This document shows, in pieces, positions 7,010 through 41,173 of a stretch of DNA of 43,338 nt. The notes under the pieces were generated by a model, which saw nothing but the letters and a program-made list of their open reading frames with translations, was not told the DNA's origin and ran no database searches. The position numbers and the translations under genes are program-made. Position 1 is the first letter of the stretch. Every line of letters starts with the position of its first letter. The DNA is from Candidatus Kapaibacterium sp. (GTDB taxonomy: Bacteria; Bacteroidota; Ignavibacteria; Kapaibacteriales; UBA4661), in the NCBI GenBank assembly GCA_025455065.1, contig JALONG010000041.1:1-43338 (forward strand). Reading direction: 5' to 3'.

Positions 7010-7111
7010 GGTTGTAAGAAAAATTGTATTGAAGATTGAATTTCTTTATACCCTCTGTTACTGAAGATGTCGTTACTATGATTCTCTTTTACGAGCTGAA
7101 ACAAAGGCTGT

Positions 7112-7129
7112 TGCTCCATTTTGCCCACA
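7112..7129 (-). promoter_or_regulatory. 18-bp intergenic box, copy A
   Basis: TGCTCCATTTTGCCCACA (plus strand) occurs identically at 9556-9573 and 18168-18185. In each case it lies 61-102 bases before a minus-strand start codon and in the same orientation. On the minus strand it contains GG-N10-GC in a TGG...GCA setting, a weak sigma-54 resemblance. Its function is unknown. Confidence 0.55.
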
Positions 7130-7158
7130 CTTGAACGAAAAAAATGTTGTTCTAACAA

Positions 7159-7188
7159 AAGCCGCACAAGCGAGATTTCATGCGGCTT
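7159..7188 (-). terminator. Terminator of the class C beta-lactamase-fold gene
   Basis: An 8-bp stem (AAGCCGCA / TGCGGCTT) with a 14-base loop lies 18 bases past the hydrolase stop codon. On the minus strand it is followed by TTGTTAGAA, a weak T-tract. Stem and loop are nearly identical to the terminator at 9584-9615. Confidence 0.75.
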
Positions 7189-7206: not shown

Positions 7207-8766
7207 TTATTCGACTCTACGAAATTCATACCCGTCTGCTTCAACAAAAGCATCTACAAAGAGCGTAAACCCCTTCACCACACCATTTTCAATACTCAAA
7301 GGAAATTCGACAGTGCCAAACATCGGATGATTATATTGACACTTCAGGTGATGATTTTCCGGCATTGTAAGAACACCTTGAAGAGTAGGATGATGCTCCA
7401 ATCGAAGAATGATTGAGTTACCCGTTTGTGTTATGAAGGCTTTTCCGTAAGAATCGCATGAATACACGCCTGTCATGGTGCTGAGAGCGAGTGTGGTATT
7501 GTTCGGAACGTTTTTCACTATTTTTGTCTCTCCGCCTGATTTTATCGTACCTTCAGCCTTATTTTTCTTGCGTTCATTCCTCCTTTTGAAAAATTCCTCT
7601 GCATAATCGGGTGCTGAAACGTTCAAGAAAGCATCAACGATTTGCCACGATAAAAGTTCATGAAACACATGAGCATCGGAATTAGTCAAAACCGCTATAC
7701 CTAAACGTTCAGAGGGAATCATACATATCTTCGTCAGCACGCCCGAATACGCCCCATTATGACCAAGAAGTTCTTGTCCGCGATATTGCATAATTTCCCA
7801 GCCGAGACCGTATGTTTTCAGATAGAGCCGTTGGTCGGCAGCTTTGCTTTTGCCAATAATCGTGTAACTACGCCACATTCGCTCAATCGCTTTTGCAGGA
7901 ATCACCTCTTTACCACCATGAAGAGCATTATTGAGCAGAACATTCATCCACGTCCCCATATCGCTAATGCTCGCAAACATCCCGCCATACCCGCGAGGTT
8001 CTATCTTTTCTTTCGGCACTGTAACAAGGCTATCGTTCACGAGAGTATGTCCCGCCGCGACATCGGCATCTTGCTCAATATCTCGCGCTTGCACAAATGT
8101 TCTCGTCATTTGGAGCGGGTTCAGCATCCGTTCCTGAAGAAATTCTTGCCACGTGAGGCCTGATGCAGGCTTGAAAACTGCCTCCGCCAACAAAAAACCA
8201 AAATTTGAATAGCCGAATCGTGTGCGAAATTGATAGGGTGGTTTCAACATGGCAAACTTTTCCAGCATCTGTCGTGTAGTCATGGAAGATTCTGTATTGA
8301 GGAAATCGCCCTGAAACGTCTTCCATCCTGAACGGTGCGAGAGAATATCCGTCAGGGTAATTTGCCGACCGTACAGCGAATCGTTCATTGAAAAATACGG
8401 CACCCAGCGCATCAACTTATCATCAAGAGAAAGTTTTTGCTCTGCTTCCAGCATTGCCATTGCTGTTCCAGTAAACGTTTTGGTAATGGAAGCAATCGGA
8501 AAAATCGTCCTGGGAGAAATACTCTTGTGTTCAGAACACTTTTGCTTTCCATATGTTTTCATCACAATGACTTTGCCGTCTTTCACCACACAGAGCGCAA
8601 GCCCGGGCATCCGAAATGCCTGCATATTACGCCGAATGTAGCTATCCAAACTGTCACTAATAAAAGTCGGTATCTGCTGTGCGCTGACGATACTTGGCAT
8701 AAAAATGAGAAACAAGAATATTCTTGCACATAACACTCGCAATGAGGTTCTTGATAAGAAATTCAT
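7207..8766 (-). CDS. Secreted serine hydrolase, class C beta-lactamase/penicillin-binding fold
   Basis: A 519-residue exported serine hydrolase. I start at the ATG at 8766 because it gives a signal peptide (MNFLSRTSLRVLCARIFLFL..., cut near IVSAQQ); other in-frame starts lie at 8802 (ATG) and 8841 (TTG). The beta-lactamase-like domain has S-x-x-K as ASITKTF (about residue 75), Y-x-N as FGYSNFGF, and the third element as LGHNGAYSG (H-x-G form). All three catalytic motifs are intact. After about residue 390 comes a Lys-rich linker and a C-terminal lipocalin-like (DUF3471-type) beta region of about 110 residues. Known family members include D-aminopeptidases, esterases and peptidoglycan-recycling enzymes. 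The outer-membrane barrel gene ends 71 bases upstream, so the two probably share a transcript. Confidence 0.92.
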   Translation of the reverse strand: MNFLSRTSLRVLCARIFLFLIFMPSIVSAQQIPTFISDSLDSYIRRNMQAFRMPGLALCVVKDGKVIVMKTYGKQKCSEHKSISPRTIFPIASITKTFTGTAMAMLEAEQKLSLDDKLMRWVPYFSMNDSLYGRQITLTDILSHRSGWKTFQGDFLNTESSMTTRQMLEKFAMLKPPYQFRTRFGYSNFGFLLAEAVFKPASGLTWQEFLQERMLNPLQMTRTFVQARDIEQDADVAAGHTLVNDSLVTVPKEKIEPRGYGGMFASISDMGTWMNVLLNNALHGGKEVIPAKAIERMWRSYTIIGKSKAADQRLYLKTYGLGWEIMQYRGQELLGHNGAYSGVLTKICMIPSERLGIAVLTNSDAHVFHELLSWQIVDAFLNVSAPDYAEEFFKRRNERKKNKAEGTIKSGGETKIVKNVPNNTTLALSTMTGVYSCDSYGKAFITQTGNSIILRLEHHPTLQGVLTMPENHHLKCQYNHPMFGTVEFPLSIENGVVKGFTLFVDAFVEADGYEFRRVE

Positions 8767-8837
8767 AGATAAAAGTTGAAATAAGTGGAACAATATGTTC
8801 ATCGGTAAAATGTCATTCGGATTTTTGAGACAAACAC

Positions 8838-9494
8838 TCAAAACGCCCAGCCAATACTCGCCCCAAGAGCATAGCCAAAGCCGCTTGCAGACAAGGTAGG
8901 ATTCCCAAGAAAACCCTGAACACGGCGCGGATTACCGATAAACGCCGATGCAATCACATCGCCCACATAATACGGCATCACGCCCACACGCAGCATAAAA
9001 CCACTCTCCAGAGAGCGATACCGATAGCCGATAGTGGAAGTGGGAATAAAACTTGCGCCGGCAAAAGTTATCTGCTCATTCGAGCCAAGTTGCCGCGCTT
9101 GCAATGCACCCACAAACATCGTTGTTCCAATGCCCAATTCCAATGCGTGAGACTGACCAAAAAGATAATTCAGCATAAGAGGCATAGGAATACCAGCCAC
9201 TTGTACATCCCCACCGCCGCTTTGCACCTGACCTGCAAGCACACCTATTCCTGCACGGAAGTACAGCGATGGTGCGACTTCCCGCTCGTAATTGAGTGAA
9301 AACGTGAGTGCGTTGCCGTTCCCTTCGAGGAAGACAGCATTGGTACGTGCGTTTAATGGCTGTACGACTGATGTTTGTGCTTGCGCTGATTGCGTTTGTG
9401 CTAAAGTCGAACAAACAGTGAGAATAATCACAAACACAATCCAAAAGCTGATGAATACTGCTTTTGAGCGTAGGGTGCGAATGAGTGGTTGCAT
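8838..9494 (-). CDS. Putative outer-membrane beta-barrel protein
   Basis: A 218-residue protein. The ATG at 9494 gives a plausible signal peptide (hydrophobic AVFISFWIVFVIILTVCS, cut near TLAQ). The mature part alternates polar and hydrophobic residues with frequent Gly, Tyr and Phe (LTFSLNYEREVAPSLYFRAGIGVLAG) and ends in GWAF; a terminal Phe is the usual outer-membrane barrel signature. I see about eight likely strands, in keeping with a small porin-like or OmpW/OmpA-like barrel, but no specific family is recognised. An upstream extension to 9593 is open but overlaps the terminator of the preceding gene and the 18-bp box, so it is unlikely. It is followed by the hydrolase gene. Confidence 0.8.
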   Translation of the reverse strand: MQPLIRTLRSKAVFISFWIVFVIILTVCSTLAQTQSAQAQTSVVQPLNARTNAVFLEGNGNALTFSLNYEREVAPSLYFRAGIGVLAGQVQSGGGDVQVAGIPMPLMLNYLFGQSHALELGIGTTMFVGALQARQLGSNEQITFAGASFIPTSTIGYRYRSLESGFMLRVGVMPYYVGDVIASAFIGNPRRVQGFLGNPTLSASGFGYALGASIGWAF

Positions 9495-9555
9495 AGTTGT
9501 TTTCGATTGTTGGAAAAAATTGTTTCCGAACAATACGTGGCGCATTTTTTCGCGT

Positions 9556-9573
9556 TGCTCCATTTTGCCCACA
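9556..9573 (-). promoter_or_regulatory. 18-bp intergenic box, copy B
   Basis: Identical to the boxes at 7112 and 18168. It lies 61 bases upstream of the barrel-protein start and 10 bases beyond the terminator at 9584-9615. The terminator-plus-box arrangement therefore repeats that at 7112-7188. Confidence 0.55.
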
Positions 9574-9583
9574 GGAAATAAAA

Positions 9584-9615
9584 AAAGCCGCATGAGCGAG
9601 ATTTCATGCGGCTTT
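9584..9615 (-). terminator. Terminator of the HExxH lipoprotein gene
   Basis: A 12-bp perfect stem (AAAGCCGCATGA / TCATGCGGCTTT) with an 8-base loop lies 21 bases past the stop. On the minus strand seven Ts follow the stem. It shares its loop and most of its stem with the terminator at 7159-7188. Confidence 0.92.
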
Positions 9616-9636: not shown

Positions 9637-10626
9637 TCACTGCGGATTATAGCCGCTTTGCGTCAAAAATTCTTGCGGGTTTTTCATGCTCATGATCTCA
9701 CGCAGAGCCTTGTGTTTGTCGGTCGCTTTGGCGTAGTATGCTTCCGTAATTTTGTAGCCGATGTAATAGCCTAAATCTGCGGGGCGACCGACAGAAGCAT
9801 TCGCATTGTAGAGCCATTTGCTAATATCCGTACCGTTCATTTCCCGCGAAAATTCTTGCCAAAGCTCCTTTTGACGCGGGTTTCCGTACTCCTTCAAATG
9901 CTGATTGATATTTTTTTCGGTAAACAACTCCGCAACAAAATCTGCACTTCCTTCTTGAAGTGCCTTGCCAAGCAGCGTATTTCCATAGTTCATGCCAAAA
10001 TGCGCTTGCTCAATGTGAATGAGTTCGTGAGCAATAATCACAGGCAAATCGCTTATCGGCTTGGTTACTGCTTTGTGCCAATCCCCAAGTTCTTCGGTCG
10101 GCGTGGAAGCATCACGCCCAAAGAGTTCCGTACCGATAAGAATGGAGTTGTTCGTAATTGTCCCGCCCGTAGCCATGCTGCCCATCATCAAATACACATC
10201 CGAAAAAACGGCATCGGGAAACATCCGTTTGAATTTGGCGAACAAACGCTGCACTTCCGTACCAACGCTTGGTGCTTGGAGAGTGAAGGGGCGTATCGAA
10301 GCGAAATAACGCGGTTTTGTGCGGACGACATTAGCGAGCGACGTAGGATTGACGCTGGATGCGCGGACACGCACGAAGTCTTTCAGACCGTTACTAGCTT
10401 TGCCGAAATACAACGTTTCAAAATCGGATGCCTTCGCGCCCGCATCAAATGCAGCCCAAAAATTCACAATGTCGCTGCTGACAATGCGAGCGTTGGTTGG
10501 GTCTATGTGTAAAGTTCCGGCTTGGGAAGGACCGAGCGAAAACTGAGGATTGGAGCAGGAATACAGAGCAATACTTACCGCCACAATACTCAGAATACGA
10601 AGAGTGGTGTGATTTGATAAACGCAT
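9637..10626 (-). CDS. HExxH zinc-protease-like lipoprotein (DUF2268/GldB-like)
   Basis: A 329-residue predicted lipoprotein. The ATG at 10626 gives MRLSNHTTLRILSIVAVSIALYSC, a type II signal peptide with lipobox LYSC; an upstream ATG at 10665 would lengthen it to no purpose. The zinc-binding motif is intact as IIAHELIHIEQ (about residue 205). A downstream acidic segment, GKALQEGSADFVAEL, supplies the E-G-x-A-D-F third-ligand pattern of DUF2268-type predicted Zn-dependent proteases, which are related to gliding protein GldB. The C-terminal LGYYIGYKITEAYY matches the G-x-x-I-G-Y element of the same group. It is therefore probably a membrane-anchored metallopeptidase or a peptidase-fold lipoprotein. 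The substrate is unknown. It stands 68 bases after the stop of the giant kinase/phosphatase gene and may be co-transcribed with it. Confidence 0.88.
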   Translation of the reverse strand: MRLSNHTTLRILSIVAVSIALYSCSNPQFSLGPSQAGTLHIDPTNARIVSSDIVNFWAAFDAGAKASDFETLYFGKASNGLKDFVRVRASSVNPTSLANVVRTKPRYFASIRPFTLQAPSVGTEVQRLFAKFKRMFPDAVFSDVYLMMGSMATGGTITNNSILIGTELFGRDASTPTEELGDWHKAVTKPISDLPVIIAHELIHIEQAHFGMNYGNTLLGKALQEGSADFVAELFTEKNINQHLKEYGNPRQKELWQEFSREMNGTDISKWLYNANASVGRPADLGYYIGYKITEAYYAKATDKHKALREIMSMKNPQEFLTQSGYNPQ

Positions 10627-10694
10627 AAATGTTGGAAATGAACATGAAAAGTAATGACGATTCAATTCAAAAAAAGAACGCAGCCTACAATTCG

Positions 10695-13600
10695 TTACAG
10701 CAAACGCTTTATCGCCAAAAGCGTCATATCATCGTACTGCGCTTTTGCGCCCTGAAACGTGTGGACTTTTTCGACAATACCCTCTAAAGCCTCTTGGGGA
10801 CTTGTTTCCGGCAGAGCGTCCATGATTGCCGCCCAATACCGATTGTTGCGAAATTCTTCGGCGTGTTCGTTTTTTGCTTCTGTGATGCCGTCGGTATTCC
10901 AAAAAATCATTGCTCCCGGCTCAATGGTGATGCGGCTTTCGCCTGTTTTTGCCGCAAAGACCTCTTCTGAACCAAAATTGCAGGCGATTCCGTCCGTGCG
11001 AAGCTGCTCCAAGGCTCGCTCGTGGGGATTCCATTTCACGGCGGGGTCGTGTCCTGCCGAACTAAAAGTGAGCGTATGCCGCTCTGCATCAAGCACAGCG
11101 ATGGTCATTGTTACAAAATCCCTTCGTGTCATGCTCTGACGCGCCATTGCGTTAGCAATTTCCAGCACACGCTTGGGCGAAATTTCCGCCGCTTCCTCCA
11201 ACATCAAGTATTTAACCTGTGTGCGGACGGTGTTCACCATTGCACTCATAAAGAGCGCGGCGGGCATTCCTTTTCCCGAAACATCCCCAATCACCAGCAA
11301 ATATCGGGTCTTGCCAAGGGGTAATACATCGTAAAAATCGCCGCCGGCCTCTTTTGCCATGCTGAGAAATGCCGCAATGTCGTAGCCCGGAATCTGCGGA
11401 AAATCCTTTGGAAGCATCGTTAATTGGACGCTTGCCGCCATTTCCATTTCTTTTTTCAACCGCTCCATTGTGGTCATCCGCTCCACCAAAAGCGCATTTT
11501 CAATCGAAATCGCCATTTGGCTACTCAGCATCGTCAATATCTGCACACGGTCTTCCGTAAACGCGCCTGCAATCAAGCTATTCTCCGCATACAGCACACC
11601 AAGCACTTTTCCCTGATTCTTGACCGCAAGCGCCAAGACCGATTGTATGCGGTGTTCGCGGATGTAGGAATTGTTCATATAAGCGCCTTCCGCCGCAGCA
11701 TCGCGTAAAATCACGGGTTCGAGGCTTGCAGCACAATGCTCGATAACACTTTTCGGCAAACGCTCTTCCGTGCCTAGCGGTGAATGGGCAAGCACCGTCA
11801 TTTCGCCGGACACGCTCAATTCGGCTTGTACAAAGAGTTCCGCCTTATGCGCCGCATTGGGGCGCTCTTCCGCAAGAAGCAGTACCACACGCTGCGCACC
11901 GGAGCTTTCCGCCGTAACACGAAGCATTTTCTCCAAAAGGCTTGGTAATGCTATTTCTCCGGCGATTGCTTGCGAAGCCTTCATCACTGCCAGCATATCG
12001 AACGTTTCCTGTGAAGATGGTTGAAAATTCGTGGCGGCAACAGTGCGAGAATCAAGCAATGAAGCGGTTTTGAGGGGTAATTCTTGCATATCATCAACAT
12101 ATTCGCCGTACTCGCGTCGCATCATTGCTTGCAGCGCAAGCGCACCCCATTTGCCATAAAGCGAGTATGCCTCACGCAAGTATTCACGAGCCTTTGCGGC
12201 ATTGCCCGCTTGGTGCATCCACATTCCTGCCCGTTCTGAAATGAGCGCCTCATCACCAAGAAAACCATAGCTCCGTGCAGAAATAACGGCTTTTTGAAAC
12301 CAAAACTCTGCTTCGTCAGTATTTCCGCCGTGTGCGAGGTACTCTGCTTGCAAACATTGGTAACGGTGATGAAACATTTTTGACCACCCCGCCCAACGTT
12401 CCAGCGTTTTCAAAACGCGCAGAAACTTCCTCCAATACCGCTTTGTACCTTGTTGCACAAGCGAACTGTATGCAAGCCCCAAATACAAATGTTGCCAATG
12501 GTAAAGGCTTGAAACAGTGCCTGTATCTCTGTGTTTATTAAATTCCCGATGAAATTCTATCGCTTTGTCATACTGATGCGCCAACAAAGCTAAGTGCAGC
12601 TTATGACAATACGAATACCCCAGAATCAAGGAATTATTCTTTTCAAAACAAATACGAAAACGGTCTCGTTCTAAGAAAAATTTTCCGTCAAGTGTACTAA
12701 ATTCGCTCCACGTTGGCTCCGGCTCTTGCAATCGCATCATCACGTGATACCACAATTCACTAGCATAAATGCTTATTTCAATACGTTTTTTGTGAACCAC
12801 AAGAATTTTTTCATGAATGATGCCCGCCAATTCTTGCAAGGGCATCGTACTTTGCAATCCTTCAGCTGAGTAATGCAGCGAGCAATATGTGGCTTCCTCT
12901 TCCACACCCAAGGCAAAAAGATTCTGTTCCCACGTGATTATTTGCCGCATATTATCCGATGGAACAGCGTACCAATAACCCGTTGTAGCGGCAAATGAAA
13001 CCAGACCTCGCAAAACATCCGGATGTTCCTCGCCATCGTGCTGCGCGTAATACATACCAGCCTTTAAGCATCGGTCGGCAAGAAGATTATTGGAAAAAAG
13101 TGAACGCATGATGATACCGGCAATAAACATAAAGTACCCCGATGCAGGATTCAAGCCATGTTTCAAACTAATCTCGCATCCAAAATACACAATCGTCGGC
13201 AACACATTTTGTGCCACAGCAATAGCAGGCACGGTAAATCGCCGAAGAATACTCATTACTTCTTGTTTCTCCTCGGACGGCGTTTGTTGCTGCCCCGCGT
13301 TTGGGTGATGTTGTAGCAGACCAATAACGCCCCGCAGTTTCAGCAAGAATATTCCGGCTGTGAATTTTGTGGGATTATGTGGAAGTTTTACCCCAAACAT
13401 CGCCAAAAGCCGCTTCCCCACAGCAACCGCGTCGGCATAGCGTCCTTCGGCAGAATACGCCTCAATCTTCACTTTTTCTCCTTGCACTCGGTCAATGAGG
13501 GTGCGCCCGTATTGCATGAGTGCGGCGCTGTAATGTTCCAGAAGCGCCGAGTTTTCGGTGATATAACCCACCTCAGCCGCAATAATGCTTGCTTCGCGCA

Positions 13601-16214
13601 TGGCTTCATAGTGCGTTTTCCAAAAACCGTCGTGCGAACACTCCCCGAAAACCCTGATATACTCTGTCGCTGCCCCATAGACCGCATTACGCTTGGCTTT
13701 GCGGGCAGCAGCAAGATTGAGCAAGGAGAGATATTCCCGCTCATCTGCACTTTGAACAAGGCTCAGAGCCTTGTTGTACTGCCCAAGCATCGCAAAAAGC
13801 ATTTCCTCTCGTTCCTCTTCGCTGAATGTAGCACGGAGCAAACGGGCAATCTTCAAATGCAAAGTATCACGCTCGAAGGCAGGAATCATGCTGTATGCAG
13901 CCTGTTGTACGCGGTCGTGAACGAACTCAAAAACGGTTTGAGTATTATTTGTTTGAGTATTATTTGTTTGAGTATTATTTGTTTGAGTATTATTTGTTTG
14001 AGTAATATGAGTTTGAGTATTCTGCTTGGTATCACTCAAACACCTCACCAAACCTGCATTTTCAGCCTGTTGGAGAATGTCTTTCACACGCTCCGGCGCA
14101 CTTTCAGCGATAATGCTCAAAACCTCAACATCAAAACGATTTCCCACACACGCCGCCAAAAGCAAGATGCGCTGCGCCTCTGCGGGAAGTTCTCTCATGC
14201 GCTCAGACAGTAGTTCCACAACATTTTCTGCAAGGCTCACCTCACGAGCGGCTTCAATACGCCATTTCCAAGCATATTCTTTTGCGTCAAACCAAATTGC
14301 GCCCGCACGATGCAAGGATTGGAGCAGTTGCACCAAAAAGAGCGGATTTCCATGCGTTTTTTCAAAAAGAATATGTGCCAAACTCTTGATTTCATGAGGC
14401 TTTTGGGAAAGTGTTTCGGCAACCAACAAGGACACCTGTTCTTCAGTCAATGCGTGAATTTCTGTCCGCACCGTTGCGATGCCCTCAAATTCAAGGCGTG
14501 AAGCGGTTTTCACAAACTTGTGTTCTGCATCAATTTCATTATTGCGAAAAGCACACATCACAAGGATTGGCGCGGTTTCGTGGCATTTCAGGATATTGCC
14601 CAGGAGTGCCATTGTTCCGGCATCTGCCCACTGCATATCATCCCAAAACAGCACGAGTGGATGATCCTTTTGAGCAAGCACACGGACAAACTGCTCCACA
14701 ACAAGGCGGAAGCGGTTTTGCGATTCCTGCACACCTATTTCCGGCACGGGAGGCTGCTCACCGAGAATGCGCTCCAACGGAGGAAAAGCACTCGTCAGCA
14801 CACGCCCGTTATTGCCGACAGCCTCCAAAATACGCGCCTTCCACGCCTTTACTGCTTCTGCGCTTTCGCTCACAAGAGCGTGGGCAAATGCTTCCATGCA
14901 CTGTACAAAGGCTCCGTAGGGAATATCGCGCTTCACTTGGTCAAATTTGCCGCTCAGAATTATTGCTTTAGAGTGAGGTTTGACGGGGCTTGCAGGAACA
15001 TTCTCGCTCATTGTTCCTTGCTGAATTGTGTTTTGATGAATTGTGTTTTGATGAATTGTGTTTTGATGAATTGTGTTTTGCAATTCCCGCACAAGGGCAG
15101 ATTTTCCCACTCCGGCAGAGCCTCCAAGCAAGACCAGATGAGGCTTTCCGCTTGCCGCCGCATGATAAATTTTCGTCAAAATGCCCAGTTCCTGCTCACG
15201 CCCGATAAGGCTTGTGGGAATGGAAAAAAGAGAACTGCGGTCAAGTGAACCCACAACGAAACCACGTAACGAAGCCGTTTTCTGCCAACGTTCTCCACAT
15301 TCTTGCAATTCTCGTTTCAGTCCTTGTGCGCTTTGGTAACGGTCATCAGGATTTTTTCTGAGTAGTTTCATCACCATCTGCGATAATTCTTGCGGCACTG
15401 CCTCATTGACCACATTTGGCGGCACAGGTTCAACGGCAATATGAGCATGGAGAATTGCAAGCGAATCAGGAAACTCCAAACCCGCTTCAAATGGTGCTTT
15501 TCCGGTAAGTAACTCGTAAAAAATGCAACCAATCGCGTATAAATCCGTTCGGAAATCTACCCCGCGTTGCACTCGTCCGGTTTGTTCGGGGGCGCAATAG
15601 CGCACATCGGGAGGCAGCACAGATGCTTGTGTTGATGTGGTTTGTGCAGTAGTGTTGTCGTCGCTCATGCGTAATGCGTGAGCAAAATGCAGGAGGAATA
15701 TATCGGAAGAACTAAGGCTGGATGAGGCTTCTGAGGCACGAAGCGAGCAAAGAATATGCTCCGGCATAAAGGAACAATGAACGATGCGGGCGGAATGAAG
15801 AGCTTCAGTACATTCGGTAACGGCTTGCATCAAAGCGAGTATTTGTGCTGTGTTCAGTGGGGCACCATGACGAGAAAACTGACGCGATTGTTGTTGCTCA
15901 TGCAGCTTTTTTTGCCGATGCAGCACATCCCGCAACGTGCGCAAGCCCTGTTCCAGCGATGGAGGGACGTTCATCACCAAGGCTAATTCGCCGCACACTT
16001 CCTCAATTCCTCGCACTTCCGGCATACACGGCAGGGCAGCATCACGCATAAGAGCAAACTCATTTGCAAGCAATGATGCGGCATTTGAGGCATGAATGAT
16101 TTTGTACAAACAATCGAAATGCTCCTCCTCACGATGCCGTCGAAAGAGCGTCATATCCGTCGTTTGCAGCAAAACCTCTTCAGCATTGGTCAAACCCAAA
16201 AGTGGTTCGGGCAT
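10695..16214 (-). CDS. Giant signalling protein: degenerate kinase, AAA ATPase, helical region, GAF, SpoIIE phosphatase
   Basis: An 1839-residue cytosolic protein. Residues 1-310 have a protein-kinase fold: a Lys in DCLYKII, the APE element in YCAPEQTGR and the F-helix DLYAIGCIFYELLTG. The catalytic loop reads VHCSFMPEHI instead of HRDxKPxN and the DFG position reads HFA, and no glycine loop is seen, so it should be a pseudokinase. Residues 340-600 are an AAA_16-type ATPase (Walker A GGSAGVGKS about 370; Walker B LVLFWDDMQWAD about 525). Residues 600-1380 are helical, TPR-like. A GAF domain spans about 1420-1576. Residues 1595-1839 are a SpoIIE/PP2C phosphatase with GGDFYD, GDVSGKGMPAALF, SSAGHDPA and YDDMTLL, so its metal-binding Asp residues are intact. 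The order resembles HstK-type proteins of cyanobacteria with the histidine kinase replaced by PP2C. It is last in an operon with STAS and RsbW-like genes, whose STAS protein is its likely substrate. Confidence 0.9.
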   Translation of the reverse strand: MPEPLLGLTNAEEVLLQTTDMTLFRRHREEEHFDCLYKIIHASNAASLLANEFALMRDAALPCMPEVRGIEEVCGELALVMNVPPSLEQGLRTLRDVLHRQKKLHEQQQSRQFSRHGAPLNTAQILALMQAVTECTEALHSARIVHCSFMPEHILCSLRASEASSSLSSSDIFLLHFAHALRMSDDNTTAQTTSTQASVLPPDVRYCAPEQTGRVQRGVDFRTDLYAIGCIFYELLTGKAPFEAGLEFPDSLAILHAHIAVEPVPPNVVNEAVPQELSQMVMKLLRKNPDDRYQSAQGLKRELQECGERWQKTASLRGFVVGSLDRSSLFSIPTSLIGREQELGILTKIYHAAASGKPHLVLLGGSAGVGKSALVRELQNTIHQNTIHQNTIHQNTIQQGTMSENVPASPVKPHSKAIILSGKFDQVKRDIPYGAFVQCMEAFAHALVSESAEAVKAWKARILEAVGNNGRVLTSAFPPLERILGEQPPVPEIGVQESQNRFRLVVEQFVRVLAQKDHPLVLFWDDMQWADAGTMALLGNILKCHETAPILVMCAFRNNEIDAEHKFVKTASRLEFEGIATVRTEIHALTEEQVSLLVAETLSQKPHEIKSLAHILFEKTHGNPLFLVQLLQSLHRAGAIWFDAKEYAWKWRIEAAREVSLAENVVELLSERMRELPAEAQRILLLAACVGNRFDVEVLSIIAESAPERVKDILQQAENAGLVRCLSDTKQNTQTHITQTNNTQTNNTQTNNTQTNNTQTVFEFVHDRVQQAAYSMIPAFERDTLHLKIARLLRATFSEEEREEMLFAMLGQYNKALSLVQSADEREYLSLLNLAAARKAKRNAVYGAATEYIRVFGECSHDGFWKTHYEAMREASIIAAEVGYITENSALLEHYSAALMQYGRTLIDRVQGEKVKIEAYSAEGRYADAVAVGKRLLAMFGVKLPHNPTKFTAGIFLLKLRGVIGLLQHHPNAGQQQTPSEEKQEVMSILRRFTVPAIAVAQNVLPTIVYFGCEISLKHGLNPASGYFMFIAGIIMRSLFSNNLLADRCLKAGMYYAQHDGEEHPDVLRGLVSFAATTGYWYAVPSDNMRQIITWEQNLFALGVEEEATYCSLHYSAEGLQSTMPLQELAGIIHEKILVVHKKRIEISIYASELWYHVMMRLQEPEPTWSEFSTLDGKFFLERDRFRICFEKNNSLILGYSYCHKLHLALLAHQYDKAIEFHREFNKHRDTGTVSSLYHWQHLYLGLAYSSLVQQGTKRYWRKFLRVLKTLERWAGWSKMFHHRYQCLQAEYLAHGGNTDEAEFWFQKAVISARSYGFLGDEALISERAGMWMHQAGNAAKAREYLREAYSLYGKWGALALQAMMRREYGEYVDDMQELPLKTASLLDSRTVAATNFQPSSQETFDMLAVMKASQAIAGEIALPSLLEKMLRVTAESSGAQRVVLLLAEERPNAAHKAELFVQAELSVSGEMTVLAHSPLGTEERLPKSVIEHCAASLEPVILRDAAAEGAYMNNSYIREHRIQSVLALAVKNQGKVLGVLYAENSLIAGAFTEDRVQILTMLSSQMAISIENALLVERMTTMERLKKEMEMAASVQLTMLPKDFPQIPGYDIAAFLSMAKEAGGDFYDVLPLGKTRYLLVIGDVSGKGMPAALFMSAMVNTVRTQVKYLMLEEAAEISPKRVLEIANAMARQSMTRRDFVTMTIAVLDAERHTLTFSSAGHDPAVKWNPHERALEQLRTDGIACNFGSEEVFAAKTGESRITIEPGAMIFWNTDGITEAKNEHAEEFRNNRYWAAIMDALPETSPQEALEGIVEKVHTFQGAKAQYDDMTLLAIKRLL
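13936..14025 (-). repeat. In-frame 15-bp tandem repeat in the giant signalling gene
   Basis: Four exact copies of GTTTGAGTATTATTT fill 13936-13995, followed by two degenerate copies to 14025. On the coding strand they give a Thr-Asn-Asn-Thr-Gln pentapeptide array around residue 730-760, in the helical region after the ATPase domain. Confidence 0.95.
15021..15080 (-). repeat. Second in-frame 15-bp tandem repeat in the same gene
   Basis: Four units of ATGAATTGTGTTTTG (the first begins CTG) encode Gln-Asn-Thr-Ile-His pentapeptides at about residues 378-398, directly after the Walker A helix of the ATPase domain. The unit is unrelated in sequence to the array at 13936. Confidence 0.95.
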
Positions 16215-16305
16215 AGCGGTGTCAAATTATGGAAGATTGTCAAGTTCCAATAGTCGAACAGTCATGCGGACTGTGTAATCAACATTCAAAAGAAGAGCCT
16301 GAAAC

Positions 16306-16662
16306 TCATGCACTCAAGCGGCTTTCAGCATCTTCAATCGTTTCGCACAACAAAAAATACTCCTTTGCGCCGACAAGGTTCAAAATGTGCAGGAGCGATT
16401 CTTGGACATTCACCATTGCCACTCGTCCGCCCTGTTCGCGCACCTCCTCTTGAAGCGCCATAAACACGCCAATTCCAGCACTTGAGACGTATTCCACATT
16501 CGACACTTCCACAACCAAATTGCGGGAAGAATGTACTTTTATCTGCGTTTGAATGAAGGTGTAGATTTCATCCGCCGTGTCGAAATTCACATATCCTTCC
16601 AGCGCAACAACGGCAGCATCAGTGTTTGCCGAGAGCAGCGAGTATTGAGCAGTTTCGTTCAT
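16306..16662 (-). CDS. STAS-domain anti-sigma factor antagonist-like protein
   Basis: A 118-residue single STAS domain, the usual length of RsbV/SpoIIAA-type antagonists. The phosphorylation site region reads NVEYVSSAGIGVFMAL, where the first or second Ser after Val corresponds to the Ser that RsbW kinases phosphorylate; the S-S-A-G-I-G pattern is intact. Helix and strand order (VVALEGYVNFDTADEI; GGRVAMVNV; NLVGAKEYFLL) fits the fold. By family knowledge, the unphosphorylated form binds the RsbW-like partner, and a PP2C enzyme regenerates it. The partner kinase gene lies directly upstream and the PP2C gene 91 bases downstream, so all three parts of a partner switch are encoded together. The target that is finally released is not evident. 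Confidence 0.93.
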   Translation of the reverse strand: MNETAQYSLLSANTDAAVVALEGYVNFDTADEIYTFIQTQIKVHSSRNLVVEVSNVEYVSSAGIGVFMALQEEVREQGGRVAMVNVQESLLHILNLVGAKEYFLLCETIEDAESRLSA

Positions 16663-16669
16663 TGGTTTT

Positions 16670-16709
16670 TGGTTTTTCGTTGTTGGTTGTTGGTTTTTCG
16701 TTGTTGGTT
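16670..16709 (-). repeat. Two 19-bp direct repeats between RsbW-like and STAS genes
   Basis: TGGTTTTTCGTTGTTGGTT occurs at 16670-16688 and 16691-16709 with a 21-bp period. It lies in the 84-base gap before the STAS start codon, in what would be the leader or spacer of the message. Confidence 0.85.
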
Positions 16710-16746
16710 TTGAAATGCTGATAAAACCTTGCTTTGTGGGAATTGT

Positions 16747-17367
16747 TTACACCAGACGTTTTTTCATGGAAATGCGATTGTATTCTCCGGGAACAACTTC
16801 GTAGCGCACTTCGTCCATAATTTTTCGTACTAAAAACACGCCCAAACCCCTCATTCTACCTTGGTTTTTGTTACGGAGTTCCGTGAGCGTTTTGTAATCT
16901 CCGACACCGTTCAGCGAATAATTTTTGCCGCGCTCACCAAAATCTTCGACATCAATCGCAATATCCTCAGACGTAATCGTAAAACGAAAAACAATTTTTC
17001 CTTTTTGTGCAAGACTACCCTCAACCCCGCTTACATCCTCGCCGTAAGAGTGTTCGATGATGTTGGAAACAACTTCCTCCAAAGCTAAACGGATGTTCAG
17101 AAAATGCTCGCCGGACAAGACAGGTTCAAGTATTTCAGCAATTCGCCGCATGATTGGCGTAACTTTGAACGGCGTTCCAAGGTCATCGGTTGAAAATGCA
17201 AACGACACCGTAATCGAAGGCAGAATCGCTCCAAGCAGCTTTTGACGCGCTTCGTACTGCGCTTCATCGCTCATGGTCTGCTCCCGCGAAAAACTGTCGT
17301 CGGTGAGCAATTTCCCGATGAGCGTTGCCAAAGAACTGAGGTCAGGCATCATAGAATTGAGATACAT
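16747..17367 (-). CDS. RsbW-like anti-sigma/serine kinase with GHKL ATPase domain
   Basis: A 206-residue protein. After an N-terminal stretch of about 60 residues with no recognised motif, a HATPase_c_2 (GHKL) domain fills the rest. The N-box is LALEEVVSNIIEHSYG, the G1 box VEDFGERG and the G2 box GRMRGLGVFLVRKIMDEV. The E-x-x-x-N and R-G-L-G-V-F patterns are those of RsbW/SpoIIAB-type Ser kinases. It would phosphorylate the downstream STAS protein and sequester a partner, classically a sigma factor. The start is the ATG at 17367; a second ATG at 17352 is possible. The N-terminal extension is longer than in RsbW and might be the contact site for another partner. It begins 52 bases after the Rep_3-like gene. 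Confidence 0.92.
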   Translation of the reverse strand: MYLNSMMPDLSSLATLIGKLLTDDSFSREQTMSDEAQYEARQKLLGAILPSITVSFAFSTDDLGTPFKVTPIMRRIAEILEPVLSGEHFLNIRLALEEVVSNIIEHSYGEDVSGVEGSLAQKGKIVFRFTITSEDIAIDVEDFGERGKNYSLNGVGDYKTLTELRNKNQGRMRGLGVFLVRKIMDEVRYEVVPGEYNRISMKKRLV

Positions 17368-17419
17368 AGCGGTTTGGGAGAGAATTGATGAAACATTTCA
17401 CAATGAAGTTTAGGCGCGT

Positions 17420-18103
17420 TTACGCTTGGAATCGCACCTGTTCGCGCTTTTGAATGGCAAAACGAATATGCGTGATTTTGCTGCCTTCTTTCACGGTCTG
17501 CATTGTCAGACGAAACGGCGTAGAATGGTGCAGTTGCTCTATTGGTTCTTTGATAAGACGCTTTTGGACATCGCGCCATTCCATAGCCCCAACGCCCATC
17601 ATTGCGCGGTACTGCTCGACGGGAATAAGCGGCGTAGAGCCTTCGCGCCAATAGGATTCGCAAAGTTCGTAGAGGACAAGTGCGTACTTGCTTTTGAGGC
17701 GGAGTTGGTGCGAAAGATTGATGCGGGCGTATTTGGGCGGATTATGCAGAAGTTTTCGCAAACGCGGATGATAGCTGTATGTGACCGTTCCGCCAACGAT
17801 ACTCACACCGGAAAACATCGTGCAAACGTTCCATTCTTCGCGGTTTGAATCGCTTGTGTTCAAGATATTCCACGCGACCACCGTTTCGACAAGCGCCTGC
17901 AAATCCTCCTTCAAACGCTCGTAGCTGCTGCGCGGATACTCCAACATCACCGCCAATAGCCGCAGCGAAATCGTATGCTCCTCACGAAAAAGAATATCAC
18001 TGTACGCAAACCCCAAGAGAACATTCCAGATTTTACGCTGCTGTCCGCTTATTCCGCCGGAAATCTCGACTGCGCCTGTATGTTTTATGACGCTCTCTCG
18101 CAT
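17420..18103 (-). CDS. Rep_3 (RepB/RepE-type) replication initiator-like protein
   Basis: A 227-residue soluble protein with the two-winged-helix layout of Rep_3 initiators (pi, RepE, RepA). The first domain (about 15-130) includes SGQQRKIWNVLLGFA, then a Y-x-x-L-K-x-x-L-x-x-L helix (SYERLKEDLQALVETVV). The linker shows the diagnostic LKSKYALVLYELCESYW, followed by IPVEQYRAMMGVG and a Lys/Arg-rich helix with FRLTMQTVKEGSKITHIRFAI. Such proteins bind iterons to start plasmid replication and repress their own promoter. I see no iteron array within 400 bases. It heads a run of four minus-strand genes with the RsbW-like, STAS and PP2C genes, so here it may act as a transcriptional regulator or mark an integrated plasmid. 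An 18-bp box lies 64 bases upstream. Confidence 0.85.
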   Translation of the reverse strand: MRESVIKHTGAVEISGGISGQQRKIWNVLLGFAYSDILFREEHTISLRLLAVMLEYPRSSYERLKEDLQALVETVVAWNILNTSDSNREEWNVCTMFSGVSIVGGTVTYSYHPRLRKLLHNPPKYARINLSHQLRLKSKYALVLYELCESYWREGSTPLIPVEQYRAMMGVGAMEWRDVQKRLIKEPIEQLHHSTPFRLTMQTVKEGSKITHIRFAIQKREQVRFQA

Positions 18104-18167
18104 ATGTGTTTATGCTGTTTTTCGGAAATAGCTTTGATACGAAAATACGCTGAAAACCCCTTGAAGA

Positions 18168-18185
18168 TGCTCCATTTTGCCCACA
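18168..18185 (-). promoter_or_regulatory. 18-bp intergenic box, copy C
   Basis: Third identical copy of TGCTCCATTTTGCCCACA, 64 bases before the Rep_3-like start. Unlike copies A and B it has no terminator hairpin beside it, because the gene upstream is divergent. Confidence 0.55.
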
Positions 18186-18517
18186 TTTGTAGGATAAAAT
18201 ATATTTGTGGTTAAACACAAGCACCCAATACCGCATAAACACTATATTGGTGGCGTTTTCACCTTGACCCGCCTATTGCTCATACGTGGAGATCCTCATT
18301 CCAAAGTTCATCAACTCACCCCCTCCATTCATTGATGAGGACTAGCAATTTATTGACGGATTTACGCTTTCGGTTGAAAATTTCCCTCCTCTTTATCGTG
18401 GCTTACCTAGATTGACATTGAGTTTGAAATTGAGATACAACTCTGCTTGAATACGGATATTTCACATTTACCTTTACGCAAAATCGCGCTTGATTTCATC
18501 ATTATTCACAAACTGCT
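18186..18517. other. Intergenic region between divergent operons
   Basis: With the 64-base leader of the Rep_3-like gene, about 414 bases separate the two divergent operons. TTGACA at 18412-18417 and TACAAC at 18436-18441 are 18 bases apart on the plus strand, a possible conventional sigma-70-like promoter for the hydroxylase operon about 75 bases downstream. A partial inverted repeat (TCCTCAT near 18293 and ATGAGGA near 18336) is also present. No iteron array, DnaA box cluster or small ORF was found. Confidence 0.4.
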
Positions 18518-19369
18518 ATGACTCTTCCAACTGATAATTACGCCCTGATGGGAATTATTGTGCTGACGCTTCTTGTCGCACGATACACCGCTATTTCCGG
18601 AACGTTGTTTGTTTGGTGGTACGCGCTGAAACGCGGAAATTCTTCGCGGAAAATTCAAATGAAATATCCGACAACAAAAGATTACCGGCGCGAAGCCGGG
18701 TACTCGCTTTTGACGATGTTGGTATATGCTACCTTTATTGCCCTCGTCTATATCCCGCAAGTTCGCCCATATACACGAATGTACGATTCTATCAGCGATA
18801 TGGGCGGACCGGTTTGGGGTTGGCTATATTGGGTTTTGTCTATTGTATTGATGCTTTTGCTGCACGATTTGTACTTTTATTGGATGCACAGAGCCGTTCA
18901 TCATAAAAAAATTTACCCCTTTGTCCACAAAGTGCATCACCTTTCGCACAATCCTACACCGCTTGCTGCCTTCGCTTTTCACCCGCTCGAAGCCTTTACG
19001 GAATTTTTAATTTTGCCGATTGTTGCCTTCATCATACCTCATACTACAAGTGCTATTGCGGTATGGATGTTTTTCATGTCTCTTTCCAATGCGTACGGAC
19101 ATTTGGGTTTTGAATTTTATCCGAAAGGCTTTAATAATCACCCCATCGGACGCTGGATTAACACATCGGTCAGCCACAATATGCACCATCAATTTGCGCA
19201 GCAAAATTATGGCTTATATACGCTTATTTGGGACAGACTTTTTGGTACCGTTCACTCGAAATATGATGAAACCTACAATGAGGTTACTTCAAGGTATCAT
19301 TCTGAAGGTACAAATGCCGTAACTCCCGTAAGCACAGCGATTTCCACTCCTCCTTTGTTTCATCAATAA
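18518..19369 (+). CDS. Fatty acid hydroxylase/sterol desaturase family membrane enzyme
   Basis: A 283-residue integral membrane di-iron enzyme. The three histidine clusters are in place: HDLYFYWMHRAVHH (His 116, 124, 128, 129), HKVHHLSHNPTP (His 137, 140, 141, 144) and SHNMHHQF (His 220, 223, 224), with the additional conserved H-x-G in NAYGHLGFE. Hydrophobic stretches at about 10-35, 62-80, 100-118 and 160-190 suit four membrane segments. The end, YGLYTLIWDRLFGTVH, is the usual family C-terminus. Members hydroxylate or desaturate lipids such as sterols, carotenoids or sphingolipid chains; the substrate here is not determinable. It opens a tightly spaced plus-strand operon, with only two bases to the next gene. 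Confidence 0.94.
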   Translation: MTLPTDNYALMGIIVLTLLVARYTAISGTLFVWWYALKRGNSSRKIQMKYPTTKDYRREAGYSLLTMLVYATFIALVYIPQVRPYTRMYDSISDMGGPVWGWLYWVLSIVLMLLLHDLYFYWMHRAVHHKKIYPFVHKVHHLSHNPTPLAAFAFHPLEAFTEFLILPIVAFIIPHTTSAIAVWMFFMSLSNAYGHLGFEFYPKGFNNHPIGRWINTSVSHNMHHQFAQQNYGLYTLIWDRLFGTVHSKYDETYNEVTSRYHSEGTNAVTPVSTAISTPPLFHQ

Positions 19370-19371
19370 TT

Positions 19372-20145
19372 ATGCGTATTCAAACAATCTCCTCCGCGTT
19401 GAGAATCTCCGCGTTGAGAAGAAACGCTGTATCCCTCAAAACCGTTGTATTAGCGGTACAAACGCTCATTCTCATCTTCTGCTATTGTTCGGTATTCGCT
19501 CAGGTGCATACCAATCACAAGGCTACGCTAACCATTGACGGCAAACAACTCTACTCTTCAAGCATACAATTTTCCCGACAGGGCGATACAACTCGCCGTT
19601 TGACAGCATACTTCGACCATACTCAACGCCTTGTACGCGCAGAAACGACGCTATTTCGTGAAAAACCCCTTGCGCTGTATTCCAACATCATTGATGATTA
19701 TCGTAATGGTGAGCATATTCGCCTGACAGCATCGGGAAACTCCTACACCATTCAACGGCGGAAAAAATCTGATGCAGCCCTCGAAGAAAAAACAATGACC
19801 GCAGAAAATGCTATTGTTGGTGCGCTTTTGGGTGAACGAGTTGCTCAAGCAGTTCCACAAATCATACGCGGCGAAGAAGTTCAATTTCCGCTTGCCATTC
19901 CGTACTTGGGAATAAGTACAACGATGAAACTGGTTAAAACAGGCACGGAAACTATCAAAGGAAAAGGGTGCATCATTGCAAAACTGGAAGCCTCGAACTT
20001 CCTTTTGCGTGCTGTGGTAGGCGAAGCCTCGTATTTCGCCTTTGAGCAATCCAAACCTTATCGGCTCATCCGTTATACCGGGCTTTTAGGTATTCCTTCC
20101 CCTGAAGGCAGCCAACAAAGCGGCATTGCGGACACCCATTATTAA
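19372..20145 (+). CDS. Secreted protein of unknown function
   Basis: A 257-residue protein not assigned to a family. A long N-terminus (about 1-42) ends in a hydrophobic stretch, TVVLAVQTLILIFCYCSVFAQ, read as a signal peptide; a 15-bp duplication at 19392-19421 produces the repeat SALRISALR before it. The mature part is beta-rich with alternating residues (KATLTIDGKQLYSSSIQF; HIRLTASGNSYTIQRRKK), resembling the DUF3108-like or LolA-like half-barrels of periplasmic lipid-binding proteins, but that is only an impression. It starts two bases after the hydroxylase stop, so translational coupling is likely, and a function linked to the lipid made by that enzyme is a reasonable guess. Confidence 0.8.
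   Translation: MRIQTISSALRISALRRNAVSLKTVVLAVQTLILIFCYCSVFAQVHTNHKATLTIDGKQLYSSSIQFSRQGDTTRRLTAYFDHTQRLVRAETTLFREKPLALYSNIIDDYRNGEHIRLTASGNSYTIQRRKKSDAALEEKTMTAENAIVGALLGERVAQAVPQIIRGEEVQFPLAIPYLGISTTMKLVKTGTETIKGKGCIIAKLEASNFLLRAVVGEASYFAFEQSKPYRLIRYTGLLGIPSPEGSQQSGIADTHY
19392..19421 (+). repeat. Two-unit 15-bp tandem duplication
   Basis: CTCCGCGTTGAGAAT and CTCCGCGTTGAGAAG are adjacent. The duplication is in frame and lengthens the region just before the signal peptide core by five residues. Confidence 0.85.
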
Positions 20146-20188
20146 AATTCACGTTTTATTATCACCTTCATTTTTCCCAAAACGTACT

Positions 20189-21406
20189 ATGAAAAATTCA
20201 CACATTTCTACCGGACTTGCAAGTTTTCTCGCAAGTATTATCGTTGCAAGTACGCTCTACCTGACAGCTTGCAACACTACACCAACAACTCCGCCGGAAA
20301 CCAATATCAGTGATTCTACCGACGTTGGTGTAACACATTTGGAATTTGGAGAAACATTAAGCAGTTTGCCGCTTCAAATTACCGTTCCCAATGCTTCTGA
20401 CCGTTGGACGTTGCAACGTCGCCGCGCTTCACCTTGGCTGTCTATTGATGCAGAGCAAGGTTCAGGCTCACGACAACTCACCGTTTCGATAGACCGGAGC
20501 AAACTTCCCCCGGGAATTTCCCGTGATACGCTTGTGATTCGCGGCTTACGCTCATTGACTACGGCTTCAAAAAATGGCGCACAACTTACGGCAGATACGG
20601 CAAAAACGATTGCTATTTCCGTTACTAATCCCGGAACTGCGCAAGCAATGGTACAAAGTGCCGCACAAATTCTTCAGCAGCAACTTTCCTCCGTTCTTTC
20701 CGGCATGACACTTCCAACTCGCGTAGATACTACGATTTCTATGGTTGGCTCGTTTGCCCTGACTTCTCCCTCCGGCACCACAAGCTATTCAAGTATGGGT
20801 GCATTCGTCGTTGGAACAAATTTTCTGGCAGATGTCGGCTCTGCAATTCAACTCACAGGCAAAACAGGCGGCACAGCCATTTCGATGGCAAAACGCGGAT
20901 TGTCGTACACAAGTTCCCGTTCAGGCACAACCGTTTCCGGCAGTATTTATGCGCCCTCTAGCGTTGTTATTGTTCCGCGCAATATTACCTTTGACGGCAC
21001 AACACCGCATACATTCACTGTCCCGGCAAGCAGCGGATTTGCAGGGTTCACGGACAATGTTATTTCTGCTGCTCCCATTGCACTCAATTCCGCGCCAACA
21101 AGTGTTGCTCAAAGTCGCAGCTTAACTTTGACATGGCAACCAACCGCCCAAGCCGATGACAGCGTGTTTGTGGTGCTGACCTTAGCCGCAGATTCCATTC
21201 CTCGCGCCGTTCCGACTATTGCCGATGATAATGCAGGCACAGTAACAATCGCCCAACAAACACTCGCAACACTCTTAGGCGGCAAAACAGGCACAGGAAC
21301 GCTTTCCGTTGTCCGTTTCCGCTACAAAATTGTTCGCTCTTCCGCTCCCGCACGAGGTTTACTCTCAGAGGCACAGCGCAGCTACACAGTAACAATCACT
21401 CAATAA
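20189..21406 (+). CDS. Lipoprotein with BACON-like N-terminal domain
   Basis: A 405-residue predicted lipoprotein. The ATG at 20189 is chosen because it gives a type II signal peptide (MKNSHISTGLASFLASIIV..., lipobox LTAC). After a Thr/Pro linker, residues about 45-130 look like a BACON/Ig-like domain: LEFGETLSSLPLQITV, WTLQRRRASPWLSID, GSGSRQLTVSIDRSKLPPG and SRDTLVIRG follow the order W-L-x-V, G-S-x-x-x-x-V-x-V, R-x-x-x-I found in BACON repeats. The rest is Ser/Thr/Ala-rich beta-sheet protein with no recognised family. Such domains usually tether to carbohydrate or mucin-like ligands. It lies 43 bases after the secreted protein gene and 19 before the LytS-type kinase gene. Confidence 0.8.
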   Translation: MKNSHISTGLASFLASIIVASTLYLTACNTTPTTPPETNISDSTDVGVTHLEFGETLSSLPLQITVPNASDRWTLQRRRASPWLSIDAEQGSGSRQLTVSIDRSKLPPGISRDTLVIRGLRSLTTASKNGAQLTADTAKTIAISVTNPGTAQAMVQSAAQILQQQLSSVLSGMTLPTRVDTTISMVGSFALTSPSGTTSYSSMGAFVVGTNFLADVGSAIQLTGKTGGTAISMAKRGLSYTSSRSGTTVSGSIYAPSSVVIVPRNITFDGTTPHTFTVPASSGFAGFTDNVISAAPIALNSAPTSVAQSRSLTLTWQPTAQADDSVFVVLTLAADSIPRAVPTIADDNAGTVTIAQQTLATLLGGKTGTGTLSVVRFRYKIVRSSAPARGLLSEAQRSYTVTITQ

Positions 21407-26001: not shown

Positions 26002-26156
26002 GGGAGACGTGCTGGAAAAGCTCATAAATACTGGGTTTGAGGGTAGAATCTAAAAACGTGTTATTTCAAAGGTGTTGCCGGGTACATGACACTTTACTGA
26101 CAATGATGGCAATTTGCACAGACAGGAGTTTCTTTGTCATGATTGACTTGGTACAC

Positions 26157-26275
26157 ACTCGTACTTGATACATACTCGTACTTGATACATACTCGTACTT
26201 GATACACACTCGTACTTGATACACACTCGTACTTGATACACACTCGTACTTGATACACACTCGTACTTGATACAT
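26157..26275. repeat. 17-bp minisatellite, seven tandem units
   Basis: Seven head-to-tail units of ACTCGTACTTGATACAC/T fill 26157-26275; the last base is T in units 1, 2 and 7 and C in units 3 to 6. Partial units flank both ends (about 26146 and 26276-26281). It lies in the 347-base gap between the DUF5686 gene and the propeller/IPT gene. The minus strand stays open in all three frames because the unit has no stop and 17 is not a multiple of three, giving spurious ORFs. No spacers exist, so it is not a CRISPR. The rest of the gap shows no recognisable gene or terminator. Confidence 0.97.
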
Positions 26276-26348
26276 ACTCGTCGCGTCGGCACAACTGCCT
26301 GTACTTTCTTCAATTTTCTCCATTTGTTACGTTCATTGCCACGCGAAA

Positions 26349-40243: not shown

Positions 40244-41173
40244 TTATGCTTCATATCCCAGATTTGGCGCTAACCAGCGTTCTGCCTCTTCTACCGTCAT
40301 TCCTTTGCGACGAGCGTAATCTTCCACTTGGTCGCGTTGGATTTTTCCCAAGGGAAAATACTTGGCTTCAGGGTGCGCAAAATACCAGCCGGACACCGAC
40401 GCAGCAGGAAACATCGCGTAACTTTCCGTGAGAATCACACTTGTATGCGCCTCTGCCGACAGGATGTCAAAAAGTTTCCGTTTTTCCGTGTGTTCGGGGC
40501 AAGCGGGATAGCCGGGTGCAGGGCGAATACCGCGATATTCTTCTTTGATAAGTGCTTCATTCTCTAAATGTTCGTCCGAAGCATACCCCCAAATTTCCTT
40601 GCGTACCTTTTCGTGAAGCCACTCTGCGGCTGCTTCGGCAAGGCGGTCGGCGATTGCTTTGACCATAATCGAAGAATAATCGTCGTGGTCTTGTTCGTAG
40701 CGTTTGCATAGTTCATCCGTGCCGATTCCTGCCGTAACAACAAATGCGCCGATATAATCTTTGAGACCTGTTTCTTTCGGCGCAATGAAATCCGCAAGGC
40801 AAAGATTGGGATTATTCGCGGCTTTTTGGCTTTGTTGGCGAAGAAAATTCAGTGTTGTTAGAAGTGTAGAACGCGATTCATCCTGATACAATTCTACATC
40901 ATCATCCTGAACGGCATTCGCAGGAAAAATGCCACAGACAGCTTTTGCCTGTAAGGATTTCTCAGCAATAATGCGCTTCAGAAGAGTTTGTGCATCATCA
41001 AAAAGTTTTCGTGCTTCACTGCCCACGACGGCATCATCAAAAATTGCGGGGTATTTGCCGCGTAATTCCCATGATAAAAAAAATGGTGTCCAATCAATGT
41101 ATGCGGTGAGTGTTTCAAGCGAAACGTCGTCAAACGTTGTCAATCCTAGTGTGCGAGGTTGTGCTATGGTCAT
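40244..41173 (-). CDS. Stand-alone MetH activation (AdoMet-binding) domain
   Basis: A 309-residue soluble protein matching only the C-terminal reactivation domain of cobalamin-dependent methionine synthase (about 330 residues in the 1227-residue E. coli enzyme). Visible signatures are [18 protein letters not shown] near the start and [19 protein letters not shown] near residue 220, which forms the AdoMet-binding region, then [24 protein letters not shown]. The homocysteine, folate and cobalamin domains are absent and no part of them lies upstream, where the gene is preceded after 17 bases by a cupin gene. By family knowledge, this domain uses AdoMet and reduced flavodoxin to remethylate oxidised cob(II)alamin. 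It could act in trans on a MetH encoded elsewhere, as in organisms with split methionine synthase. The ATG at 41173 is the natural start. Confidence 0.93.

Follow-up and report, generated by a model that had tools for sequence, protein, structure and literature searches.

The stretch of DNA analysed here (hereafter the window) is the whole 43,338-nt contig JALONG010000041.1 (C118) of a 5.6-Mb Candidatus Kapaibacterium sp. genome (G000) split over 131 contigs, and it carries an operon in which a gene for a plasmid-type replication initiator of the Rep_3 family heads a set of partner-switching genes. Open reading frames (ORFs) and Pfam matches bear out the initial annotation of four minus-strand genes in the order Rep_3, RsbW-like kinase, STAS antagonist and giant pseudokinase/AAA/GAF/PP2C protein, with gaps of 52, 84 and 91 nt. 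The first gene (17420-18103) encodes a 227-aa Rep_3-family protein (Rep; Pfam Rep3_N and Rep3_C) that consists of the WH1 and WH2 core only and that we tentatively propose to be a transcription regulator and the target of the switch. It is followed by an RsbW-like HATPase serine kinase of 206 aa whose N-terminus is extended by about 65 aa (16747-17367; HATPase_c_2, 2e-16), a 118-aa RsbV/SpoIIAA-like STAS antagonist (16306-16662; STAS, 4.4e-17) that keeps its serine (S61, in SSAG), and a sensor/phosphatase of 1839 aa (10695-16214).

All the parts of a partner switch are present (an N-box kinase, a STAS protein with the conserved serine and a SpoIIE/RsbU-type PP2C domain), and judged by their residues they look functional. 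In the RsbW-like kinase, E98 and N102 align with the N-box Glu and Asn of RsbW (6m36), while S61 of the STAS protein aligns with the conserved serine position (SAG of TM1442), which we take to be the phospho-acceptor site. The giant protein matches Pkinase (6.8e-15), AAA_16 (1.9e-34), GAF (9.1e-14) and SpoIIE/PP2C (7.2e-38), with a weak TPR match under its cut-off, and the PP2C metal-site motifs GGDFYD, GDVSGKG, NTDG and YDDMT can be read in its sequence. Its kinase part is probably a pseudokinase, because the catalytic-loop Asp and the DFG motif are missing (HCSFMPEH and LHFAHA, by eye). The giant gene also holds two in-frame 15-bp tandem repeat tracts (13921-14036 and 15010-15084, with TNNTQ-like and NTIHQ-like repeats), the second of which is largely absent from the alignment with the related genome described below (G002).

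The transcription unit is probably five genes long, which corrects the earlier four-gene view, because a co-directional gene for a GldB-like lipoprotein or DUF2268 protease-like protein (9637-10665, minus strand; GldB_lipo, 2e-13) follows the giant gene and is itself followed by a hairpin terminator of 12 pairs plus a T tract at 9584-9615. No minus-strand terminator-like sites were found in the gaps between the four genes; the terminator between Rep and the RsbW-like gene that would have separated Rep from the switch is thus not seen. Within the five genes Pfam detected no sigma factor domain, and Rep_3 occupies the place of one. A scan for sigma-70 promoters was uninformative, with 6 sites where 3.4 were expected (sd 2.3) in one run and 2 against 6.3 in another.

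By Pfam, Rep has both Rep_3 winged-helix domains (Rep3_N, 8.9e-19; Rep3_C, 1.2e-9), and its AF2 model (mean pLDDT 70) finds as its best match the RepE dimer on its operator (Foldseek E 1.7e-9), followed by RepE54 with iterons, pi and RctB. Residues K181 and R182 align with R206 and R207 of RepE, which together with R200 are presumably its DNA-contact residues. The two Reps of this kind, that of the window and that of G002, both stop at the WH1-WH2 core, whereas 24 of 24 aligned relatives (19 of this order and five from alphaproteobacterial plasmids) extend 27-180 residues further, the lengths at L033 and L034 being lower bounds since these loci are cut by contig ends. This core-only length points away from a role in initiation, but is suggestive only.

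The operon recurs in a related metagenome-assembled genome labelled Ignavibacteria bacterium (G002), on contig JAAFHM010000108.1 (Rep locus L025). In a search of 61 genomes, our own included, G002 held the only Rep more than 80% identical to that of the window, and this one close ortholog sits with the same three genes, in the same order and in a different gene neighbourhood; relatives in which Rep is unlinked from the other three, which would have spoken against the operon, did not appear. Identities between the two genomes are 83% for Rep, 89-91% for RsbW, 71-72% for STAS and 68% for the giant protein. The ratio dN/dS is 0.13 for Rep (227 codons), 0.07 for RsbW (first 97 codons) and 0.10 for STAS (dS near saturation), and judged by this ratio Rep appears to be under purifying selection. 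The operon of G002 comes after genes for a response regulator and a glucosamine-isomerase/PIG-L protein, while G007, a genome of the same genus, has the block that adjoins the operon in the window (FA hydroxylase, 20126-21406, histidine kinase, LytTR regulator) without the operon. Because the loci of the window and G002 differ, the four genes appear to have moved, or stayed, as a unit. Since it recurs in G002, the gene order is more than a chance arrangement.

A third copy of the four-gene set was not seen in the search with Rep of 61 genomes, with a Rep profile of 294 genomes of the class (a sample that leaves G002 outside), with an RsbW profile of 395 genomes of the phylum, or in scans of genome contigs, viral contigs and plasmids. 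In the 294 class genomes, as far as the contigs reach, the window itself was the only Rep match with this context. The RsbW profile gave 21 weak matches, whose neighbours lie outside the third-copy search, and among the plasmids, where neighbours were covered in five of 619 Rep records, RsbW had no match. The Rep scan of genome contigs found the G002 contig again and that of viral contigs yielded three distant Reps. Twenty other Rep matches came out of the 61-genome search, of which 19 loci were taken as wider regions (all but G001:C12); across all these loci, matches to RsbW, STAS or the giant protein near a Rep were confined to L025, apart from one weak STAS match about 8 kb from Rep in L029.

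Comparing the regions upstream of Rep in the two genomes, we found that the longest word they have in common is an exact 20-mer, TGTGGGCAAAATGGAGCAWC, also given as TGTGGGCAAAATGGAGCATC. In 2000 first-order random resamplings the longest shared word averaged 8.5 nt and reached 16 nt at most, and the upstream regions as a whole are 56% identical when aligned while the 20-mer is exactly alike. At up to three mismatches the 20-mer has three sites in all 5.6 Mb of G000 (reversed control, one), and all three lie on the minus strand of the window, each ahead of a unit read from that strand. The first copy (TGTGGGCAAAATGGAGCATC, 18166-18185) lies 62 nt before the Rep start and has a CGTA 16 nt downstream (18146-18149); the second (TGTGGGCAAAATGGAGCAAC, 9554-9573; CGTA at 9534-9537) lies 59 nt before the likely start of an outer-membrane-type gene; the third (7110-7129; CGTA at 7090-7093) lies 100 nt before the start, at 7009, of a gene for a protein with a type IX secretion system (T9SS) sorting tail. 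In G002 the motif is 100 nt before the Rep start, and CGTA stands exactly 16 nt downstream of the motif at four of four sites. If CGTA belongs to the -10 element (T at -12), the motif would span about -50 to -31 and be centred near -41, the position of a class II activator.

This bipartite arrangement is rare. A matrix made from the sites scored 41.5 for the three (by construction) in a scan of the entire window, the next best score being 8.8. In a set of ten genomes, motif-N16-CGTA without mismatch occurs three times in G000, once in G002 and nowhere in the remaining eight. Allowing up to two mismatches yields 17 places in the set, one of them with a single mismatch in G003, compared with 7 for the reversed control, and only the zero-mismatch sites are used as evidence here. 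Among the 294 class genomes the 20-mer at up to one mismatch was found three times in G000 and once each in two other genomes, where it falls inside argG-like ORFs (gene name read from the translations). Three matches with three mismatches in G002 were set aside: two are inside ORFs, one (C292) is between ORFs, and none has CGTA at +16. Nor is passive duplication together with a neighbouring terminator supported as the origin of the copies. A hairpin terminator with AGCCGCATGAAATCTCGCT does adjoin two of them (7153-7188 and 9584-9615), but the flanking bases differ and the terminator word is found genome-wide, with 19 copies in G000 and 10 in G002 at up to two mismatches and none in the reversed controls.

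The two further units preceded by the motif are proposed targets and encode cell-surface proteins by their predicted features. The outer-membrane-type protein (8838-9494, minus strand) has a signal peptide by eye and no Pfam match, and matches in relatives are 27-41% identical; we set its start at 9494 because a longer ORF would start inside the terminator. A beta-lactamase-family gene (7207-8841, minus strand; Pfam Beta-lactamase) follows and overlaps it. The third copy precedes a gene for a putatively secreted BNR/beta-propeller-type protein (5726-7009, minus strand; Por_Secre_tail), in which the BNR match is below its cut-off.

The motif and this Rep occur together in two of ten genomes and are both absent from the other eight. 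G007 has related proteins for the switch (STAS 43%, giant PP2C protein 35%, RsbW 41%) without an adjoining Rep, and the genome has no exact motif; since it has the STAS-PP2C-RsbW set and lacks both this Rep and the exact motif, the motif seems to go with Rep and not with the switch. The set in G007 (C68; L143:3203-3559 and L049) comprises genes for STAS, the giant PP2C protein, a P450, an ALO-type oxidase, an M19 dipeptidase and RsbW and adjoins a divergent adenylate/guanylate cyclase gene; this partner switch seems to be linked with a small biosynthetic cluster. L049:8217-9085, which precedes the cyclase gene, contains two stretches of repeated DNA (SRAYTF/VRAYSVL repeats). Judged from their C-termini, other relatives of the giant protein in the genus (G002:C260, G000:C131, G005:C12) have a histidine-kinase-type domain as their last part; at the G005:C2 locus the end of the giant relative lies outside.

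We tentatively favour a reading, plausible though short of probable, in which Rep regulates the transcription of a small local regulon and takes the place of a sigma factor as the target of the partner switch. The initial annotation had offered a regulatory role as one of two options, and this part gains from the motif at three units (the Rep operon and two neighbours), the dN/dS of 0.13, the lack of iterons (below) and the lack of a C-terminal extension. The steps in which we infer binding of Rep to the motif, binding of RsbW to Rep and the sign of the regulation would run as follows. At rest, the RsbW-like kinase would bind Rep and go on phosphorylating STAS. A signal picked up by the pseudokinase/AAA/TPR/GAF region of the giant protein would activate its PP2C domain, which would dephosphorylate STAS; STAS would then take RsbW and Rep would be freed. 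Free Rep would bind the 20-bp motif, around position -41 of promoters whose -10 element is of the CGTA type, and activate its own operon, the outer-membrane/beta-lactamase unit and the gene for the T9SS-secreted protein. Stated in its most specific form, with a domesticated plasmid initiator as a sigma-like output that RsbW sequesters and that, once freed, activates its own operon and two cell-surface units in class II fashion from a 20-bp operator upstream of each, the proposal is a possible one that we hold more loosely.

Several observations weigh against this reading. The third of the presumed RepE contacts, R200, aligns with E175 of Rep; residues 174-199, the proposed recognition helix included, are identical in the two genomes. 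RepE of F, at 251 aa, has no long extension either, and a short C-terminus is therefore compatible with initiation. The giant protein of G002 has one in-frame TAA, which speaks against a working sensor in that genome unless it is an assembly error, and the RsbW of G002 is interrupted in the assembly; we rejected a frameshifted pseudogene here, since the break is a 10-base run of N. G002 has one site, before its own operon, and a regulon of several genes is therefore read from G000. Finally, the motif as a derived iteron was tried and rejected: its score over nine groups of iterons was equalled by 36 of 300 shuffles and by 87 of 300 20-mers of the window, and the words AAATGG or CAAAATG that it has in common with some relatives' iterons (by eye) were rejected as evidence. 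As the motif is not significantly iteron-like, the link between Rep and the motif draws on their co-occurrence in two genomes.

The best rival, possible if rather doubtful, holds that the target of the switch is an unlinked regulator, a sigma factor or another kind, which reads motif-N16-CGTA, with Rep merely co-transcribed or an autoregulator feeding back on the operon. Motif and CGTA together could form a long promoter of an alternative sigma factor, the failure of the motif to resemble iterons fits a different reader, and the G007 set shows the switch proteins without a linked Rep; in other systems, too, as far as the excerpts available go, the output is unknown or is not a linked sigma factor (PMC8256260; SypA/SypE, PMC12826045). 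The motif is nonetheless missing from G007, which has the RsbW/PP2C set and not this Rep. The 20 contiguous conserved bases also go beyond the need of a -35 element, and no other protein of the operon is as well conserved between the two genomes as Rep and RsbW.

It is unlikely that Rep is still a replication initiator and the locus a fragment of a plasmid or chromid that has integrated and replicates under the control of the switch. In favour of this stand its membership of the Rep_3 family, a single DnaA-box-like TTATTCACA at 18502, and a plasmid search in which, among the best 25 of 619 records listed, the best matches are alphaproteobacterial replication initiation proteins at 35-38% identity. 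Iterons, however, which the initial annotation had already reported missing, are seen in neither genome: there is no direct-repeat family at 18050-18560 and no iteron array at L025, against 16 of 18 relatives in which a 14-mer is present four times or more near Rep (the loci taken as wider regions, L035 left out; a count made with no shuffled background). In the five alphaproteobacterial plasmids this count is uninformative, yielding 4-7 matches that are GC-rich and for the most part scattered. A ParA-like gene (by Walker motif) lies at most four genes from Rep in 10 of 19 related loci, whereas neither the window nor the surroundings of Rep in G002 have one; none of the 19 contains a gene that matches this RsbW. 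These two counts weaken the earlier suggestion that the module rode in on a plasmid. The genes nearby have a chromosomal look (in the window a SusC/RagA-like gene and a fragment of MetH, in G002 the glucosamine-isomerase gene), and the contig ends show no exact overlap of 20-399 nt that would point to a circle. Rep is probably not an initiator at this locus.

The MetH fragment is a stand-alone 309-aa ORF (40244-41173) that matches only the C-terminal part of methionine synthase, and upstream of the SusC/RagA-like gene a 17-bp tandem repeat array (ACTTGATACACACTCGT, 26129-26315) separates two minus-strand genes. Among the related Rep loci, a DUF1285 gene adjoins Rep in three. The genus has a second kind of Rep_3 gene (L027:9085-10886, L028:8730-10288 and L029:8493-10163, in G005:C12, G007:C111 and G003:C111), which adjoins a DUF1285 gene and lies behind a long iteron array of the TCCCCATTTACAGG type, on contigs of 92-240 kb and with no ParA-like gene within four genes; it possibly belongs to a replicon, chromosomal or chromid, or is a further case of a domesticated Rep.

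That Rep is a decaying passenger, a leftover gene that by chance lies upstream of a signalling operon, is very improbable and was already disfavoured: the lack of origin repeats and the stop-interrupted giant protein of G002 would fit, but not a dN/dS of 0.13 over 227 codons or a 20-bp upstream element identical in two genomes in an otherwise diverged region.

Returning to Rep as a regulator under the control of the switch, we compared the operon with known systems. It resembles RsbU-RsbV-RsbW-SigB and SpoIIE-SpoIIAA-SpoIIAB-SigF of Bacillus subtilis in bringing together a kinase, a STAS protein with its serine and a PP2C phosphatase in one operon, and differs in having Rep_3 in the sigma place, about 65 additional N-terminal residues on the kinase and a phosphatase fused to a pseudokinase/AAA/GAF sensor. 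With Rep_3 initiators (F RepE, Acinetobacter RepM and rhodobacteral Reps) Rep has the WH1-WH2 architecture and the fold in common; unlike them it has neither iterons nor a ParA-like neighbour, is core-only compared with its closest relatives and lies in a signalling operon. The Gram-negative and cyanobacterial systems SypA/SypE, HmpUWV and RbaVW follow the same RsbW/STAS/PP2C logic with no established linked sigma target, and the excerpts of the two papers cited above (PMC8256260, PMC12826045) name no DNA-binding target of the replication-initiator type. Both halves of the preferred reading have precedents, the one in these switches, several of which have an output that is unknown or is not a linked sigma factor, and the other in initiators that regulate transcription: RepE represses its own gene (PMC13028717), and TrfA binds and regulates the host PexsC promoter in Pseudomonas, although TrfA, unlike Rep here, is the replication initiator of its plasmid and the excerpt mentions no partner switch (PMC12691604). 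In keeping with the initial annotation, which knew of no described system of this composition, none was met among the matches listed or in the open-licence literature covered, where 'Rep_3' was not found together with 'partner switch'.

If Rep is the output of this switch, the proteins that partner switching can hold would include a DNA-binding protein of the replication-initiator type, beyond sigma factors or enzymes. Rep_3 proteins could then leave plasmids and become dedicated regulators with operators of their own, the proposed operator here being short, exact and present in only three places in the genome.

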